A DNA stretch of 64,000 nucleotides from Brevibacterium ravenspurgense (GTDB lineage: Bacteria; Actinomycetota; Actinomycetes; Actinomycetales; Brevibacteriaceae), in contig NZ_LQQC01000010.1 of the NCBI RefSeq assembly GCF_001584615.1, forward strand, positions 310,001 through 374,000, written 5' to 3'. Positions 18,854 through 27,009 of this stretch are shown here, piece after piece (position 1 is the stretch's first letter; every line of letters starts with the position of its first letter). The position numbers and the translations under genes are program-made. The notes under the pieces were generated by a model. The model was not told where the DNA came from, did no database searches, and saw nothing but the letters and a program-made list of their open reading frames with translations.

Positions 18854-19510
18854 ATGTCCGTTCACGCCGTGCCCGCTGCACTCGCGCAGCTTCGTCGTCT
18901 GCCGGGCGTGAGCACTGCTCGCGACCTGGCGGACGCTAAGCTCACGTTCCCCGTGGTCTCTGCTCTGCGCTCAGTGTTTCCTACTGGGCTTCCGCGCGGC
19001 GAGGTGACTGAGATCGTCGGTCCGCAGGCTCTGTCGCTGGCACTGGCCGCCGTGGCTCGTCTGAGCGCGGAGGACCACTGGGCGGCCGCCGTGGGGGTGG
19101 GGGAGCCCGCTGTGCAGGCGATTGCCGACTACGGGGTTTCGCTCAGCCGCTTCGCCAGCGTTGAGGTCGACGCTCGCGACTGGCTGCGGGCAGTGTCGAT
19201 TCTCGTGGAGTCCTTTTCCGCGATCATCGTCCGTCCGGGCTTTTCTCTCACACCCACCGAACAGGCGCGCCTGCGAGCGAAAGTGCGTGAACGCAGCATG
19301 AGCCTCCTGGTGGTGGGCAGCAGCCGACAGCCGAAGGGAACCGCGGACCGCACGGTGTCTGTCTCTGCTCCGCGGTGGGCGGGCCTGGCCCAGGGCGCGG
19401 GAACGCTGAGCGAATGCGCCGTCACGGTCGACCACGGTCGCGAACGCGTCCACCTGCTGCTGCCCGGAGCATCCGGCCGCGCTGAGGAAAGGGGCATCCG
19501 CCTTGTCTGA
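18854..19510 (+). CDS. imuA: ImuA' mutasome protein (RecA-like fold)
   Basis: A 218-residue member of the ImuA'/SulA-related branch of RecA-like proteins that accompanies ImuB and DnaE2 in SOS mutagenesis. The core FPTGLPRGEVTEIVGPQALSLALAAVARL matches the region around the former Walker A of RecA, but no canonical GxxxxGKT survives, so ATP binding is unlikely. ATG 18854 follows TGGAGG. Positioned directly after the SOS box as first gene of an overlapping three-gene operon. Confidence 0.85.
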   Translation: MSVHAVPAALAQLRRLPGVSTARDLADAKLTFPVVSALRSVFPTGLPRGEVTEIVGPQALSLALAAVARLSAEDHWAAAVGVGEPAVQAIADYGVSLSRFASVEVDARDWLRAVSILVESFSAIIVRPGFSLTPTEQARLRAKVRERSMSLLVVGSSRQPKGTADRTVSVSAPRWAGLAQGAGTLSECAVTVDHGRERVHLLLPGASGRAEERGIRLV

Positions 19511-21143
19511 TGCTCACCGCAGCGGCACCGCGGGCTCAGCGGTCCAGAAGCAGCCGGCTGAGCCCGGCGGAACACTGCGCACACTCGTGCTTCACGTACC
19601 GGACTTCACCGCCGTCGCCCATGCCGAAGCCGCCGGTGTTTCGCCGAGCACCCCAGCGGTTGTTCTGCACGCCGGGCGGGTCATCAGCGCAGACGCACAG
19701 GCCAGGGCCGCGGGTATTGCCGTGGGGCTGAACCGACGAGCAGTCGGCCACCGCTGCCCGCAGGCTGCCGTACTCAACTACAGCGAAGACACCGAACAGC
19801 GGCTTTTTGCCCGCAGCGTGGGAATCCTCGAAGACCGCATGGCTCGCTTCACCCTGCTTCGACCAGGCACCATCGGCGTTCCCGTCAGCTCTTTCGCCCG
19901 CACCCACACGGAAGACACCGCTGCAGAAGAGCTGCTGACGGCGCTGACCGACGCCACCGGCTGGGAAGTGCTGGCAGGCATTGCCGATTCACCGTTTGCA
20001 GCAGTTCTTGCAGCACATCGCTCACACCGCGTTGAACCAGGGCAAACAGCAGAGTTCCTCGCACCGCTGCCGGTCAGCACACTGGCAGAAGCCCACCCGG
20101 AGCGCTACGCGGACTTCACACAGCAGCTGGGCCGTCTGGGACTTGGAACTCTGGGCGATCTCGCAGCACTGTCAGCTGACAGCGTCTACACGCGCTTCGG
20201 CTCTGTCGGTCAGACAGCCAGGCTGTTGGCGGCGGGACTGACCGAATCTCTTCCAGCCACGCACCTTCGGACAGCCGATGTGACCGTCTCCTGTCCCATT
20301 GAACCGCCCACGGGCCGAACCGACGCACTGTCCTTCTACGCGCGCAGTGCTGCCGCAGACCTCTTCCGTCGTGTTCGCAGCACCGGGCTGGTGTGCACGC
20401 AGGTGACAGTCGTCCTCCATGCTTCCGGCGCAGAGGCCGAACAGCGCACGTGGCGACTGCCGGACATGGACGAATCGCACATCGCCGACCGTGTCCGCTG
20501 GCAGGCTGACGGCTGGCTGGCCACACGAGGCGGGAGCGCAGAACCGCAGGCCTCGACGGCTGCCAGCCCACCTGATACGGGTGACGGAACAGATGACGGC
20601 ATCAGCCTCATCGAACTCACAGCGGCTGAACTCGTCCGACCGCTGGAAAACACCGCGGACCTCTTCAGCACGCGTTCAGGGGACGTCAGCCGCACACTCG
20701 AGCGTCTACAGGGCCTCTTCGGCCCCGACGCTGTACGCGTACCGCACGTGCAAGGCGGCCGTGAGCCCAGCGAAACGAACCTGTGGACCCCGTGGCAGCA
20801 GACACCTCGGCCGCTCAGGGACAGCCGGGCACCCTGGCCCGGTGCTCTCCCGGCACCCCAGCCGACCCTCGTCGACACAGCTGACATCGACCTTCTTGAC
20901 GCCCACGGCAGCACTGTCGTGGCCAGACCCTCGGGGCTGGACAGTCCACCGGACAGGATTGTGTGGCCGGGCGGGGAGCACAGTCGTGTCATCGCCTACT
21001 CATCGGCGTGGCCGGTCGAAGCCGAATGGTGGGACCCACCGGGACAGTACCGGGTGCGTCTGCAGGTGCTGACCGACGACGACCGCGCCCTGCTGCTGAA
21101 AAAGGAAAACGGCCAGTGGTCAATAGCCGGCAGGTACGAATGA
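19503..21143 (+). CDS. imuB: ImuB, catalytically inactive Y-family polymerase homologue
   Basis: A 546-residue adaptor that bridges DnaE2 and the beta clamp in known mutasomes. It keeps the Y-family layout, but the metal-binding motifs are lost: the N-terminal DxDxFFAS motif reads LHVPDFTAV (about residues 29-37) and the SxDE motif is absent. Helix-hairpin-helix-like LGRLGLGTLGDLAAL (about 209-224) is retained. The TTG start at 19503 with GAGGAAAGG upstream overlaps imuA' by 8 bases; no nearer ATG suits. The long C-terminal region (after about 340) is Pro/Asp-rich. Confidence 0.88.
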   Translation: MSDAHRSGTAGSAVQKQPAEPGGTLRTLVLHVPDFTAVAHAEAAGVSPSTPAVVLHAGRVISADAQARAAGIAVGLNRRAVGHRCPQAAVLNYSEDTEQRLFARSVGILEDRMARFTLLRPGTIGVPVSSFARTHTEDTAAEELLTALTDATGWEVLAGIADSPFAAVLAAHRSHRVEPGQTAEFLAPLPVSTLAEAHPERYADFTQQLGRLGLGTLGDLAALSADSVYTRFGSVGQTARLLAAGLTESLPATHLRTADVTVSCPIEPPTGRTDALSFYARSAAADLFRRVRSTGLVCTQVTVVLHASGAEAEQRTWRLPDMDESHIADRVRWQADGWLATRGGSAEPQASTAASPPDTGDGTDDGISLIELTAAELVRPLENTADLFSTRSGDVSRTLERLQGLFGPDAVRVPHVQGGREPSETNLWTPWQQTPRPLRDSRAPWPGALPAPQPTLVDTADIDLLDAHGSTVVARPSGLDSPPDRIVWPGGEHSRVIAYSSAWPVEAEWWDPPGQYRVRLQVLTDDDRALLLKKENGQWSIAGRYE

Positions 21144-24100
21144 GCGGCTTCAACCCCCGCACACCGTGGTCAGAACTCGAACGCCGCCTATCAGCCACAA
21201 AGCCCGACCCCGCGGCCAGCCGCCCCGTCGGCGCCGGCTGGCCCGCCGCCTCGTCAGCGGAGCCCGCTCAGGCCCAGGCCGCACCGGCAGTGCGCACGGC
21301 TCCACACTCCGTCCGCTATGCCGAACTGCACGCGCATTCGGTCTACAGCTTCCTCGACGGAGCATCGCAGCCAGACGAACTGATAGCTGAAGCATCCCGG
21401 GTGGGACTGAGCGCAATGGCGCTGACAGACCACAACAGTCTCGGCGGTGCCGTGCAGTTCGCTCAGGCCGCCCGCGAACACGATGTCCCCACGGTGTTCG
21501 GTGCGGAACTGTCGCTCGGACTGCAGGAAAAGATTCCCGGTCAGATCGACCCGGAGGCTCACCACCTGCAGGTGCTCGCCGTCGGAGTGGAGGGGTACCG
21601 TCAGCTCTCAGCGGCGATCACCCGAGCCAATATGCGCGGCGAAAAGAACCGGCCGGTGTTCGAACTCGAAGAACTCGCCGCTCTTGAGGCCGACTGGAAG
21701 ATCCTCACCGGCTGCCGCAAAGGGCATTTGGGGCGGGCACTCAATGATCCCGACGGGGGAGCTGCGGCGCTGCGACGGCTTGTTGACCTGTTCGGCCGCG
21801 ATCGGGTCGTCGTCGAGCTCACTCGCTTCGGACTGCCGGGCGACGATGCGCGCATAGCCCACCTGCAGGAGCTCGCCGCCCAGTTTCGTCTGCCCGCTGC
21901 GGCAACAAACGCAGTGCACTACGCCGACCGCACAAGATTCCACGATGCGCAGGTGCGGGCCTCCATCCGCTCGCGCCTGCCGCTGTCTGAACTGGCCGGG
22001 TGGCTGCCTCCAACAGCCTCGGCCAGGATTCACACACCCGCCGAAATGCTGGCGCGCTTCGGCCACGGCCCGGTCACGACTGCTGCAGCCATCGGCGAGG
22101 AATGCGCGTTCGAGCTGCGCGCAGCACGCGCCGGACTGCCCAGCCCACCCGTACCAGCTGGGAGAACAGACACCGAGCACCTGCGCGACCTGGTGATTCA
22201 AGGAGCCCGGCAACGATACGGCAATCCGGAACAGGCACCTCGGGCGTGGGAGCAGATCCACAGTGAACTCGACGTCATCGATTCCATGGGACTGGCCGGC
22301 TACTTCCTCATAGTCGAAGACATTGCGCGATTCTGCCGTGAGAACAACATCTTCTGCCAGGGGAGAGGGTCAGCGGCGAACTCGGCGGTGTGCTTTGTCC
22401 TCGGCGTAACCGCCGTCGACGCCGTCCAGTTCCAGCTGCTGTTCGACCGCTTCCTCAGCCCCGAGCGTGCGGGCTACCCGGACATCGACCTCGACATCGA
22501 ATCCAGTCGCCGCGAAGAGGTCATCCAGTACACCTACCGCACATACGGGCGCGACCGTGCCGCACAGGTGGCCAACTACATCACCTACAGGCCCCGCTCA
22601 GCCATTCGCGATGCCGCACACGCCCTGGGCTACAGTCCCGGCCAGCAGGACGCCTTCACGAAGGGCGTCAGCCGCTGGCGAACCCTGCCTCCCGCAGACG
22701 AATCCCCGGCTCCGCCCCAAGTGCTCCAGCTTGCGGAGGGTCTGCTGGGCACACCGCGTCACCTGGGGATCCACTCCGGCGGCATGGTGCTTGCCGACCG
22801 CCCACTGGGCGAAGTCGTGCCCATCGAACAGGCTTCTATGCCCGGCCGCACCGTCCTGCAGTGGGACAAAGACGACTGCGCGGCAATGGACTTAGTGAAG
22901 TTCGATCTTCTGGGACTCGGCATGCTCGGTGCCCTGCACGAAATGGTCGACCTCGTTCAGCAGCACACGGGAACACGCATCGACAGGGCACAGATACCCC
23001 AGGAGGACGGGGTCTACGACATGCTGTGCCGGGCCGATGCCCTGGGCGTGTTCCAAGTGGAGTCACGCGCTCAGCTGGCCACACTCCCCAGACTCAAACC
23101 CCGCAACTTCTATGACCTCGCGGTACAGGTGGCGCTCATCCGCCCCGGCCCCATCCAGGGTGGATCCGTCCACCCGTATATTCGCCGCCGGCAGGGTCTG
23201 GAGGACGTTGACTACATTCACCCCAGCACGCGGCGGGCACTGGAAAAGACGCTCGGCGTTCCGCTGTTTCAGGAACAGCTCATGCAGCTGGCAATCGATG
23301 TTGCGGGTTTTTCGGGAACGGATGCCGATGAGCTGCGCCGCGCCATGGGTGCTTCCCGCAGTCAGCGGAAGATGCGCGAACTTCAGCAGCGCTTCCACAC
23401 AGGGTGCAGACAGCGAGGGATTGACGAACAGACAGCGCAGGTCATCTTCGACAAGATCGCAGCGTTTGCCAACTACGGCTTTCCCGAATCCCACGCTCTG
23501 TCCTTTGCCGGCCTGGTCTATGAGTCCGCGTGGTTCAAATACCGCCACCACGCGGCCTTCACAGCTGGGCTTCTGCGCAGTCAGCCGATGGGCTTCTATT
23601 CGTCGCAGTCGCTCATTTCCGACGCCCGGCGCCACGGCATTGCCATCCGCCCGGTGCACATCAATCTTTCCGCTGCACGCACGGATCTCGAGGCGGATGC
23701 TGAGTCTTCCGGCGGGTTCGCCATCCGCTTGGGACTGGATGAGGTCAAAGGCGTTGCCGATGCTGCTTCTGCCCTAGAGCGGGAACGGCAGGTGGGGGAG
23801 TACACCTCGATCGTCGATGTCGCCGAACGCACCGGGGTGGGGGTGCGGGTCCTTGAGGCTCTTGCCACGGCCGGGGCTTTTGACTGTTTCGAGGTGGATC
23901 GCCGGCAGGCACTGTGGACGGCCGGTGCTTTGGGACGGGCGGGACCGCAGACGCTGCCGGGGACCGCACCGGCTGCACAGCCTCCCACGCTGCCGGCTAT
24001 GGACGACTTCGATGTCACGCTCGCGCAGCTGTTCTCTACCGGAATCACGGTCGAGGGCTATCCGACGGAGCACCTGCGCGCGCAGCTTGCTGCTCGCGGC

Positions 24101-24412
24101 TGCTGGTCGACGGCGGACGTGCAGCGTGCCGCCCAGGGCCAGCGCGTGACCGTTGCCGGAATTGTGACGCACCGTCAGCGGCCGAGTACGTCCCAGGGCA
24201 TCACCTTTATCAACCTGGAAGACGAATTCGGCATGCTCAACATCGTGTGCACCCGCGGGCTCATCCGCCGTTTTTCACCCCACGCGCTGACCCGCAGCGC
24301 AATTGCCGTCACGGGGCTCATCCAGCGTGCGGGAAGCGTCATCAGCCTCTACGCCCACAGCATCGTGCCGCTGGAAGTCGACGTCCCCATCCGCTCCCGC
24401 GACTTCCAGTAG
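21140..24412 (+). CDS. dnaE2: error-prone DNA polymerase III alpha subunit DnaE2 (ImuC)
   Basis: A 1090-residue C-family polymerase for translesion synthesis. The PHP domain begins at about residue 60 (YAELHAHSVYSFLDGAS), the palm Asp triad starts in YPDIDLDIE (D448, D450), the tau/HhH region follows, and an OB fold sits near the C terminus (VTVAGIVTHRQRPSTSQG). ATG 21140 overlaps the imuB stop (ATGA). The first 55 residues are a Pro/Ala-rich leader. It is the last gene of the SOS operon. Confidence 0.95.
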   Translation: MSGFNPRTPWSELERRLSATKPDPAASRPVGAGWPAASSAEPAQAQAAPAVRTAPHSVRYAELHAHSVYSFLDGASQPDELIAEASRVGLSAMALTDHNSLGGAVQFAQAAREHDVPTVFGAELSLGLQEKIPGQIDPEAHHLQVLAVGVEGYRQLSAAITRANMRGEKNRPVFELEELAALEADWKILTGCRKGHLGRALNDPDGGAAALRRLVDLFGRDRVVVELTRFGLPGDDARIAHLQELAAQFRLPAAATNAVHYADRTRFHDAQVRASIRSRLPLSELAGWLPPTASARIHTPAEMLARFGHGPVTTAAAIGEECAFELRAARAGLPSPPVPAGRTDTEHLRDLVIQGARQRYGNPEQAPRAWEQIHSELDVIDSMGLAGYFLIVEDIARFCRENNIFCQGRGSAANSAVCFVLGVTAVDAVQFQLLFDRFLSPERAGYPDIDLDIESSRREEVIQYTYRTYGRDRAAQVANYITYRPRSAIRDAAHALGYSPGQQDAFTKGVSRWRTLPPADESPAPPQVLQLAEGLLGTPRHLGIHSGGMVLADRPLGEVVPIEQASMPGRTVLQWDKDDCAAMDLVKFDLLGLGMLGALHEMVDLVQQHTGTRIDRAQIPQEDGVYDMLCRADALGVFQVESRAQLATLPRLKPRNFYDLAVQVALIRPGPIQGGSVHPYIRRRQGLEDVDYIHPSTRRALEKTLGVPLFQEQLMQLAIDVAGFSGTDADELRRAMGASRSQRKMRELQQRFHTGCRQRGIDEQTAQVIFDKIAAFANYGFPESHALSFAGLVYESAWFKYRHHAAFTAGLLRSQPMGFYSSQSLISDARRHGIAIRPVHINLSAARTDLEADAESSGGFAIRLGLDEVKGVADAASALERERQVGEYTSIVDVAERTGVGVRVLEALATAGAFDCFEVDRRQALWTAGALGRAGPQTLPGTAPAAQPPTLPAMDDFDVTLAQLFSTGITVEGYPTEHLRAQLAARGCWSTADVQRAAQGQRVTVAGIVTHRQRPSTSQGITFINLEDEFGMLNIVCTRGLIRRFSPHALTRSAIAVTGLIQRAGSVISLYAHSIVPLEVDVPIRSRDFQ

Positions 24413-24465
24413 AGCCGCAGCTTTGGGCAGAAACCGGTCCTTTTGGGTCGAGCAGGACAGGTTCA

Positions 24466-24521
24466 TGACGCGAACAGACGACTCTATGACCGAATGTGAC
24501 GAGCCGTGACGCAGACATGAC
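24466..24521 (+). promoter_or_regulatory. array of five phased TGAC repeats upstream of metY
   Basis: TGAC occurs at 24466, 24487, 24497, 24507 and 24518, i.e. with spacings of 21, 10, 10 and 11 bases (one or two helical turns). Four of five copies fit YRTGACGMR. The array lies 30-90 bases upstream of a TAGCGT box (24553-24558), where an activator would bind. No known methionine regulator site or SAM riboswitch was recognised. Its 3' neighbour is a 12-base palindrome of C and G (24526-24537). Nothing else was seen in the 24413-24612 gap. Confidence 0.4.
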
Positions 24522-24612
24522 GAGACCGCGGCCGCGGGCCAGAAGCCGAACCTAGCGTGAGCATCAGCATCCCAGACCACACCAGATCCGGGAAAAGACT
24601 TAGGAGATTCCC

Positions 24613-25923
24613 TTGACTGAACAGGCTTTTGAAACCCGTCAGATCCACGCCGGCCAGGTAGTGGACAGCGAAACCGGCGCACGTGCGCTGCCCATCTACC
24701 AGACCACCTCGTTCGTCTTCGACTCCACGAAGACCGCTGCAAACCGCTTTGCCCTTGCAGAGCTGGGCCCCATTTACACCCGCCTGACCAACCCGACGAC
24801 CGAAGCGGTTGAAAACCGGATCGCGAGCCTCGAAGGCGGCGTCCACGCGGTTCTCGTGTCCTCGGGTCAGTCGGCAGAGTTCCTGTCGCTGATCAACATC
24901 GTCGAGGCCGGTGACCACATCGTGTCCAGCCCCAGCCTCTACGGCGGCACCTACAACCTGCTCAATGTGACCCTGCGCAAGCTCGGCATCGAAACGACCT
25001 TCGTTGACGACCCCAGCGACATCGACGCGTGGAAGCGTGCCGTGAAGCCCAACACCAAGGCCTTCTTCGGCGAAACAATCTCTAATCCTCGTTCGGACGT
25101 GCTCGACATCCGCGCCGTTTCCGATGTCGCACACGAAGCCGGTGTGCCGCTCATTGTCGACAACACCCTTGCCACCCCGTACCTGCTGCGCCCCATCGAG
25201 CACGGTGCTGACGTTGTCGTCCACTCGGCAACCAAGTTCCTCGGCGGACACGGCACCTCGATCGCCGGTGTCATCGTCGACTCCGGCAACTTCGACTACG
25301 GCAAGAACCCAGAGAAGTTCCCCGGCTTCAACGAACCGGACGACTCCTACAACGGTTTGGTGTTCGCCCGTGACCTCGGGGCTGACTCGCCATTCGGCGC
25401 GAACGTGTCCTATGGCCTGAAGATCCGCGTCCAACTGCTGCGCGACCTCGGCACTTCAGCGTCGCCGTTCAACGCGTTCCTCCTGCAGCAGGGTATTGAA
25501 ACCCTGTCTTTGCGCATGGAGCGTCACGTAGAGAACGCCACGCGTGTCGCCCAGTGGCTCGAAGAGCGTGATGACGTCGAATCGGTGTCCTACGCGGGAC
25601 TGGAGTCCTCGCCGTGGCACGAACTGGGCAAGAAATACCTGCCCAAGGGTGTCGGCGCGGTTCTTGGCTTCAACATCGGCGGCGGCTATGACGCAGCGGT
25701 GAAGTTCGTTGAGGCACTCGAACTGCACAGCCACGTGGCCAATATCGGCGATGTCCGCTCGCTGGTCATCCACCCGGCTTCGACTACCCACTCGCAGCTG
25801 AGTGAAGAAGAGCAGCTCGCAGCGGGCGTCAACCCCGCATTCGTTCGCCTGTCGGTGGGCATTGAGGGCATTGACGACATCATCGCCGACCTCGAGAAGG
25901 GCTTTGCCGCAGCCCGCGGCTGA
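24613..25923 (+). CDS. metY: O-acetylhomoserine aminocarboxypropyltransferase (sulfhydrylase) MetY
   Basis: A 436-residue PLP enzyme of the Cys/Met metabolism family that makes homocysteine from O-acetylhomoserine and sulfide. The internal lysine is K208 in [18 protein letters not shown]; substrate and cofactor motifs include [22 protein letters not shown] and SSGQSAEFL. The length above 420 residues fits MetY rather than the approximately 390-residue MetB/MetC enzymes. TTG start at 24613 with TAGGAG (24601-24606). metX follows after 6 bases. Confidence 0.94.
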
Positions 25924-25929
25924 TCCACG

Positions 25930-27009
25930 ATGACAGTCACCAGTGTGAACAGAGTTCTTGAGATCGACGGCTTCACCCTTGAATCCGGGGTTCTCGATCA
26001 CATCAGCCTCGCATACGAAACATTCGGCACGCTCAACGCTGAAAAGTCGAATGCGGTGATTGTCGAACATGCTCTCACCGGTGACTCCCACGTGACGTCC
26101 GGCCGCACGGATTCCCGTGCGGCCGGCGCCGCGCCCGGGTGGTGGGAGGAACTCGTCGGCCCGGGGCGACCTATTGACACTGACCGCTTCTTCGTCATCT
26201 GCACCAACGCTCTCGGCGGATGCACCGGCACTACGGGTCCGCTGTCAACAGCACCTGACGGCCTGCCCTACGGCGGACGGTTCCCGCGGGTCAGCATCCG
26301 CGACATGGCGCGTTTGGAGCTTCTCCTGCTGGACCACTTGGGCATTGATCACCTGTACGCCGCGATCGGCGGTTCGATGGGCGGAGCACGTGCTCTGGAA
26401 CTGGCGCTCGAAGCGCCGGAGCGGGTGCAGCGGCTGACGGTTCTTGCCGCGCCCGCCTATTCGGAGGCCGACCAGATCGCCTGGGCTCACGCGCAGGTCG
26501 CCGCCATCACTATGGATCCTGACTACGCAGGCGGTGACTACGCTGCGCTGGGCTCGGTGCCTGAAAGGGGTCTGGGCTTGGCCCGCCAGATTGCCCACCT
26601 GACCTACCGCAGCGACGCGGAGCTCAACTCGCGTTTCGGTCGGAATCTCCAGCACATGTCTGACGACCCCTATTACGCCGTGCAGTCCTATTTGGACTAC
26701 CACGGGGACAAGCTCGTGGGTCGTTTTGATGCTCAGGCGTACATTCTTCTGACGGAAGCGCTGCGCGACCACGATGTGCGCCGCGGTCGTGCTGACACGC
26801 TCAATGAGGCCCTTGCGCGCTACACGGGTCCGGCATTGGTTCTGTCGCTGTCGACAGACCGGCTGTACCCGCCGAAGCAGGTGAAGCTCATCGCCGACAA
26901 CCTGCCGGGGCAGGTTGAGTACGCCGAGATTCCCACGGACGTGGGCCACGACGGCTTCCTCACGGAAGCTCGCGCGGTCGGTGCGTACGTGTCGCAGTTC
27001 CTCAGCTGA
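25930..27009 (+). CDS. metX: homoserine O-acetyltransferase MetX
   Basis: A 359-residue alpha/beta-hydrolase-fold acyltransferase that activates homoserine for MetY. The catalytic triad is visible: nucleophile S149 in GGSMGG, D310 in STDRLYPP and H340 in GHDGF. Other family blocks are EHALTGDSHV, WWEELVGPGRPIDT and NALGGCTGTTGP. The gene lies directly downstream of metY and completes the direct-sulfhydrylation route to homocysteine. The acyl donor (acetyl versus succinyl) is inferred from the actinobacterial context. Confidence 0.94.
   Translation: MTVTSVNRVLEIDGFTLESGVLDHISLAYETFGTLNAEKSNAVIVEHALTGDSHVTSGRTDSRAAGAAPGWWEELVGPGRPIDTDRFFVICTNALGGCTGTTGPLSTAPDGLPYGGRFPRVSIRDMARLELLLLDHLGIDHLYAAIGGSMGGARALELALEAPERVQRLTVLAAPAYSEADQIAWAHAQVAAITMDPDYAGGDYAALGSVPERGLGLARQIAHLTYRSDAELNSRFGRNLQHMSDDPYYAVQSYLDYHGDKLVGRFDAQAYILLTEALRDHDVRRGRADTLNEALARYTGPALVLSLSTDRLYPPKQVKLIADNLPGQVEYAEIPTDVGHDGFLTEARAVGAYVSQFLS

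Follow-up and report, generated by a model that had tools for sequence, protein, structure and literature searches.

A helically phased TGAC array upstream of metY-metX in Brevibacterium, a putative operator of a sulfur regulon

Brevibacterium is important for cheese aroma and skin. In the 64,000-nt stretch of the Brevibacterium ravenspurgense genome analyzed here (hereafter, the window), five copies of TGAC on one face of the helix precede metY-metX, and the question is what these repeats do and which protein might read them. A first-pass annotation had taken them for a multi-site operator or activator array of sulfur-amino-acid genes. The operator reading held, and three elements missing from that annotation were added to it: a sixth unit (AGAC), a fixed distance of 35 bp to the −10 element, and a probable regulator. 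Judging from sequence comparisons, the array very probably functions as an operator of the activator type for a sulfur regulon.

Layout, conservation, and promoter geometry of the metY array

Re-reading the sequence returned all five TGAC starts listed in the first-pass annotation, with their spacings of 21, 10, 10, and 11 bp, as well as the TAGCGT hexamer, which begins 35 bp downstream of the last TGAC start (Table 1). With the in-phase AGAC inside the 21-bp gap counted as a unit, the array comprises six units of 10–11 bp. The gene names metY and metX were also correct, as shown by the PRK07812 and PRK00175 matches above cut-off, and metX, which begins 6 bases after metY, probably belongs to the same operon. 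On the upstream side, the gene of an error-prone DNA polymerase (20963–24412; PRK05672, 1332 bits) ends 53 bases before the array, and the long-frame start of this ORF is overlapped by another ORF (19503–21143), which may encode an ImuB-type partner.

Table 1. Features of the metY-metX upstream region and its target genes (offsets are distances to the −10-like hexamer, counted in the 26 promoters that match the four-unit pattern)
Feature	Position	Strand	Remark
TGAC unit 1, most distal	24466..24469	+	Offset 87 in 6/26 promoters
Degenerate unit AGAC, in phase	24476..24479	+	Read from the sequence; function putative
TGAC unit 2, first of the genus-conserved four-unit core	24487..24490	+	Offset 66 in 25/26 promoters
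TGAC unit 3	24497..24500	+	Offset 56 in 24/26 promoters
TGAC unit 4	24507..24510	+	Offset 46 in 26/26 (required by the pattern)
TGAC unit 5, promoter-proximal	24518..24521	+	Offset 35 in 26/26 (required by the pattern)
−10-like hexamer TAGCGT	24553..24558	+	xAxxxT at this offset in 24/26 promoters
metY, O-acetylhomoserine sulfhydrylase, target gene	24613..25923	+	PRK07812, 738 bits, cut-off 703
metX, homoserine O-acetyltransferase	25930..27009	+	PRK00175, 433 bits, cut-off 331

The annotation had named an equal TGAC density in unrelated intergenic DNA as an argument against its own reading. Instead, the cluster was unique: the array was the sole span of the window with at least four TGAC in 56 nt of one strand. 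When the window was dinucleotide-shuffled 300 times, two shuffles gave five TGAC in 56 nt and none gave a chain of four at 10/11-bp spacing. Weaker measures were commoner in the shuffles, with a chain of three in 11/300 and four TGAC in 56 nt in 113/300. The 7-mer TGACGMR was at background level in the window (67 observed vs 64.7 expected), so the signal lies in clustering and phasing and not in an extended word. The 9-mer YRTGACGMR, which had been proposed as the motif, was therefore too narrow and was rejected: its 7-mer part is not enriched and varies between species, and the core that stays constant across species is TGAC.

For conservation, we used a set of 30 metY upstream regions, all from Brevibacterium, made up of the region in the window and the best 29 others. 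The pattern TGAC-N6-TGAC-N6-TGAC-N7-TGAC, allowing one free base in the first unit and two in the second, was found in 26 of the 30. When chains were counted with a spacing of 10, 11, or one skipped turn, 29/30 regions had at least three units and 27/30 at least four (L022 had two units only), vs no chain of at least three in the control stretches (0/30 inside metY and 0/29 in the upstream gene body, 0/59 together). In a scan across the genus with at most one mismatch, 54/57 genomes contained a match, vs 6/57 for the reversed control pattern. The exact pattern was present in 19/24 Brevibacterium genomes vs 3/273 other genomes of the order, and the matches in these three look like chance. The annotation had also made its reading depend on conservation in relatives, and the alignment showed that both the repeats and their phasing are conserved. 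The arrangement is thus one of head-to-tail repeats 10–11 bp apart on one face, as in OmpR/PhoB-type sites.

These data bear on the possibility that the array has no function and is either a cluster arisen by chance or the remnant of a repeat expansion. Such an origin would agree with the background level of TGACGMR, with the frequency of four-TGAC clusters in the shuffles, and with a local tandem duplication in one relative (L006). We nevertheless consider it hardly credible, as the TGAC cores and their 10/11-bp spacing are retained in the metY promoters of the genus while the bases between units drift, and as chains occur in nearly all relatives vs none of the controls.

The position of the array relative to the promoter was equally constant. 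Counting 35 bp from where the final patterned TGAC begins, the hexamer reached was GACAGT in 13 of the 26 promoters, TAGCGT in 5, GAGAGT in 5, and one of three others in the remainder. A at position 2 together with T at position 6 was found at this offset in 24/26 promoters and at any other offset from 20 to 59 in at most 9/26. The two exceptions (L025 and L026) have an extra TGAC 10 bp further on, followed by CACGAT 35 bp after this extra TGAC. L019 has the same arrangement of extra TGAC and CACGAT, in L027 the distance is 34 bp, and L015 and L022 do not conform. No consensus −35/−10 pair was detected in 24380–24640 of the promoter in the window, where transcription would start near 24565. 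Because of the fixed 35 bp to a −10-like hexamer and the missing −35 box, the geometry is that of an activator, and we infer activation rather than repression at metY.

We also weighed a repressor operator, to which several protomers would bind across the promoter region under an ample supply of methionine or SAM. Multi-site methionine repressor operators have a precedent in the met boxes of MetJ (tandem palindromes of 8 bp), and negative autoregulation would agree with the reversed orientation of the repeats at the winged-helix gene described below. However, the metY units, of which the nearest is 35 bp before the −10, all lie upstream of the −35 position and leave the core promoter uncovered, and a consensus −35 is lacking. 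Furthermore, they are direct repeats at 10–11 bp, unlike the tandem palindromes of MetJ or the site of McbR. The latter, the TetR-type methionine/cysteine repressor of Corynebacterium glutamicum, acts on metY, metX, and further sulfur genes through a palindromic site. We therefore judge repression through the array to be very unlikely.

Related arrays at other sulfur genes and the SAM-IV riboswitch

A sequence-only model built from 20 metY promoters (R1) gave a best match at E ≤ 1.4e-9 in 49/57 genomes of the genus, a count that includes the genomes from which the training promoters were taken. Among the R1 matches listed, we opened 40 regions, picked by eye and mostly not at metY; because they were opened by choice, the share of sulfur genes among them is not an unbiased rate. 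Sites were found upstream of metB-like genes (L185, L186, L190, and L191, with L190 just below the NCBIfam cut-off), metE (L204, with metF upstream), metF (L230), and cysK (L196). Among organosulfur genes, there were sites at sfnG (L197 above cut-off; L214 and L224 by likeness) and ssuE (L187 and L201 just below cut-off; the ssuE-like frame of L188 is interrupted a few codons in), and one site 1.1 kb before the gene of an SsuA-like binding protein (L226). Three sites preceded an acetate-CoA ligase gene with a metY paralogue behind it (L192, L193, and L199). The remainder stood at transporter genes (L194, L195, L200, L211, L218, L220, and L229), OsmC genes (L212, L216, and L222), and VOC genes (L215 and L223), and no clear sulfur link was seen at L213, L221, or L228. 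L189 was cut by a contig end, and L219 was left out of the gene survey.

Two further matches, L202 and L203, were taken as false positives because they overlap a long inverted repeat. This repeat is near-perfect (CTTCACGGCCCGTCAT/ATGACGGGCCGTGAAG) and is probably a terminator or an operator itself.

The promoter geometry of these sites lends modest support to their assignment. Repeats 24/25, 35, or 45/46 bp before a loose −10 were present at 14/18 non-metY sites, vs 4 to 11 of 18 at each of 18 shifted offsets, and with a tighter −10 hexamer, the counts were 4/18 vs 0 to 2. Among the 18 sites, no −10 candidate was found at cysK, two OsmC genes, and one VOC gene. At metB, four or five TGAC with a constant 45-bp offset were seen in three genomes. 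The annotation's proposal of a multi-site array for sulfur-amino-acid genes was borne out in a wider form, as similar arrays precede other methionine, cysteine, and organosulfur genes. In the open-licence literature, as far as its listings and the opening lines of its abstracts go, we recognized no description of such a regulon.

Strict scans of the own genome, that is, the genome of the window, returned only metY, one three-unit match (vs one control match), and two matches with two mismatches. One match, at C10:187989, was not kept as an array on its scanned strand. On its other strand, TGAC stands 55 and 35 bp before TAGCGT, which is the metY geometry, ahead of a dioxygenase gene. The 2OG-Fe(II)-oxygenase-like gene behind this TGAC pair and TAGCGT (L035:2865-3869; G000:C10, minus strand) is a possible further member of the regulon.

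The annotation had also stated that the array does not correspond to a known SAM riboswitch, and Rfam scans agreed with this. The sample comprised 13 of the 36 inspected metY loci of other genera and 20 of the 30 Brevibacterium metY loci. SAM-IV (RF00634) preceded metY at 10/13 loci of other genera, whereas 0/20 Brevibacterium loci had a match to any Rfam family at gathering score, and a known SAM riboswitch at the array was rejected on these grounds. At the locus in the window, with E up to 1, the only match was an unrelated, sub-threshold chance match inside metY. The array and SAM-IV thus share their position before the same gene, but SAM-IV is an RNA aptamer in the leader and is absent from all 20 Brevibacterium loci scanned. 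A loss of SAM-IV from Brevibacterium altogether was rejected, as 27/37 genomes keep one elsewhere under strict filters.

In some Brevibacterium genomes, SAM-IV precedes metY paralogues (G031:C10, G016:C8, and G030:C7). The element of the own genome (L318; G000:C2:5436-5548) is not at metY and overlaps the 5′ part of an uncharacterised ORF. At one Nakamurella metY locus (L073), a short Cys-rich ORF lies between the SAM-IV element and metY, which may represent a riboswitch and a cysteine leader in tandem; a similar short Cys-rich ORF is present at another (L134).

A candidate winged-helix regulator and its leader ORF

Among the regions opened, R1 sites stood directly upstream of homologues of one winged-helix gene in three genomes (L217, L225, and L227). 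In the own genome, this gene (L210:994-1758; G000:C11:6814-7578) adjoins upp and encodes a protein of 255 aa. It is present in 37/37 Brevibacterium genomes of the relatives set, and at E 1e-25, orthologues were found in 42/198 genomes of the order: 15 in Brevibacterium, 14 in family f6, and 13 in family f19. The only Pfam match is PF00486 at residues 170–240. No receiver domain with a phospho-acceptor Asp was found in the protein with Pfam or with NCBIfam at E 1e-20. Its N-terminal half, which AlphaFold modelled poorly (mean pLDDT 60), may possibly hold a receiver too diverged for Pfam. The best fold matches of the predicted structure were the PhoB effector domain and GlnR, and the sequence matches include VanR, GlnR, RegX3, and PhoB.

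The promoter of the winged-helix gene carries GTCA-N6-GTCA at 27/30 loci (with GTCG first in L245) and lacks it in L234, L248, and L252. At 17/30 loci, the first GTCA unit lies 64 bp from the −10-like AA[TCG]AAT, the pair thus standing at 64/54 bp; in L247 and L250, three units stand at 55, 45, and 35 bp. These repeats have the opposite orientation to the metY units. Because they are reversed and lie at 64/54 bp instead of 55/45/35 bp, negative or other autoregulation is possible.

The own genome encodes five other OmpR-type (PF00486) proteins, with MtrA-, RegX3-, and PrrA-like ones apparently among them. By eye, each of the five genes is beside a kinase-like ORF, and any of their products, or a direct-repeat binder of another type, might bind a sulfur-regulon array of which the winged-helix gene is a mere target. 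Nonetheless, 0/5 of these genes have two phased TGAC/GTCA units within 350 nt upstream, whereas the candidate gene does; this survey covered the OmpR-type proteins. As for direct-repeat binders, PMC5859096 describes BldC-type proteins as binding head-to-tail too, but to AT-rich 9-bp units, AATTXXXX(C), unlike TGAC at 10–11 bp. The array contains no AATT. Overall, another regulator seems rather unlikely, and the winged-helix protein is likely to be the regulator of the array, which it would bind.

Between promoter and winged-helix gene, a leader ORF of the type ...MCMPCVRGR was found at 28/30 loci (in the own genome, MFFQQRMPMLCVRDLTC). The rule used did not find it in L237 and L238, and in L245 it ends in MPRVRDAS. 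At most loci viewed by eye, the ATG follows the −10 by 6–7 nt, which makes leaderless translation likely. The stretch of the ORF behind its final Cys codon serves as one of the two arms of a conserved hairpin, in which both-side changes were seen at 5/10 predicted pairs (19 of 22 sequences). The covariation term was small (−0.81 kcal/mol) and was obtained without a shuffled control. The locus thus combines a short ORF containing codons of the amino acids that would be sensed with an overlapping hairpin, the arrangement expected of an attenuator. On this evidence, we lean towards a Met/Cys attenuator that controls the winged-helix protein, with cysteine or methionine as the presumed signal. Poly-cysteine leaderless leader ORFs have reportedly been described in mycobacteria. 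Like these, the Brevibacterium leader is a short Cys-containing ORF, probably leaderless, before a sulfur-linked gene; it differs in that it precedes a transcription regulator and contains Met as well as Cys. Elsewhere, in a genome of a different family (G046), a Met/Cys-rich frame ending in MMCSMMMMCMMMRMMRRQPSL was observed upstream of another winged-helix gene (L263, ~950–1020).

Variants of these elements were seen in the two other families with orthologues. In f19, metY of one genome (G056) is preceded by TGAC-N6-TTAC-N6-TGAC and, at 35 bp, TAGCGT; no SAM-IV match was found in this genome, the one tested. Across the f19 metY upstream regions (L305–L317), TGAC or TTAC stood 45 bp before TAnnnT in 10/13, within a conserved T(G/T)AC-N6-TTTC-like block, by a rule set after the data had been seen and without a shuffled control. 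In f19, the leaders of L304 and L262 end in CCRMCR. The 12 f6 loci viewed showed no TGAC array ahead of the winged-helix orthologue; TTGTTAC occurs there twice, 20 bp apart (21 in L286), at 7/12 loci, and a leader ORF ending in CCRM(H/Q)A is present at 6/12. These f6 and f19 leaders resemble the poly-cysteine leaders of mycobacteria. The seven loci with the TTGTTAC pair are L286, L290, L292, L296, L298, L300, and L301, most of which also have the CCRM(H/Q)A leader. The pair and the leader may represent the same control in diverged form.

Comparison with known regulators and proposed circuit

Among known systems, the pho box of Escherichia coli PhoB also consists of direct repeats about one turn apart, and the candidate's winged helix is a match for the effector domain of PhoB. 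The array differs from the pho box in that it serves sulfur and not phosphate genes, has four to six units, is spaced at 10 and 11 bp, and carries the GTCA of the metY units on the antisense strand; its candidate regulator has no detected receiver. The PhoB half-site is given as TGTCA(T/C) in PMC3264566. In the complement of the array, GTCA is mostly followed by T or C, and GGTCAT occurs in one unit of the own array.

GlnR is, like the candidate, an orphan OmpR-type regulator of a nutrient regulon; it has paired sites about one turn apart and keeps an atypical receiver. The GlnR boxes, with the consensus gTnAc-n6-GaAAc, differ from the array, whose core is TGAC throughout and in which GAAAC follows directly after unit 1 in many species and not 6 bp away. 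Moreover, a GlnR-like protein of another genus (L265, named by eye) differs from the candidate.

Taking these observations together, we favor, with reasonable confidence, an activator array for metY-metX and a wider sulfur regulon, with the winged-helix protein as its activator and attenuation in the leader of its gene. The array would be the platform of an activator that switches on metY-metX and other sulfur genes upon a shortage of sulfur amino acids. Each TGAC (GTCA on the other strand) would be the half-site of one DNA-binding domain and, if TAGCGT is the −10, protomers would sit head-to-tail on successive turns at −47, −58, −68, −78, and further, the proximal one touching RNA polymerase on a promoter whose −10 is weak and which lacks a −35. 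The activator would be the 255-aa PhoB/OmpR-type protein without a detected receiver, of which more would be made when ribosomes stall at the Cys/Met codons of the leader, that is, when those amino acids are scarce. Put as a whole, and only tentatively, since we rate this fullest form at somewhat short of an even chance, the circuit would be a relay: a Met/Cys leader senses a shortage of charged tRNA and raises a receiver-less, phosphorylation-free PhoB-type activator, which fills phased GTCA/TGAC arrays whose helical phase to the −10 is fixed at metY, metB, metE, and organosulfur genes. This relay would replace, at metY in Brevibacterium, the SAM-IV of other actinobacteria and exist in a diverged form in f19.

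What emerges from the sequences is the outline of a sulfur regulon that spans the genus, together with an operator, a promoter geometry, and a candidate regulator. A putative protein-binding array stands at metY where other genera have a riboswitch, and a PhoB-type regulator is possibly under amino-acid attenuation instead of phosphorylation.
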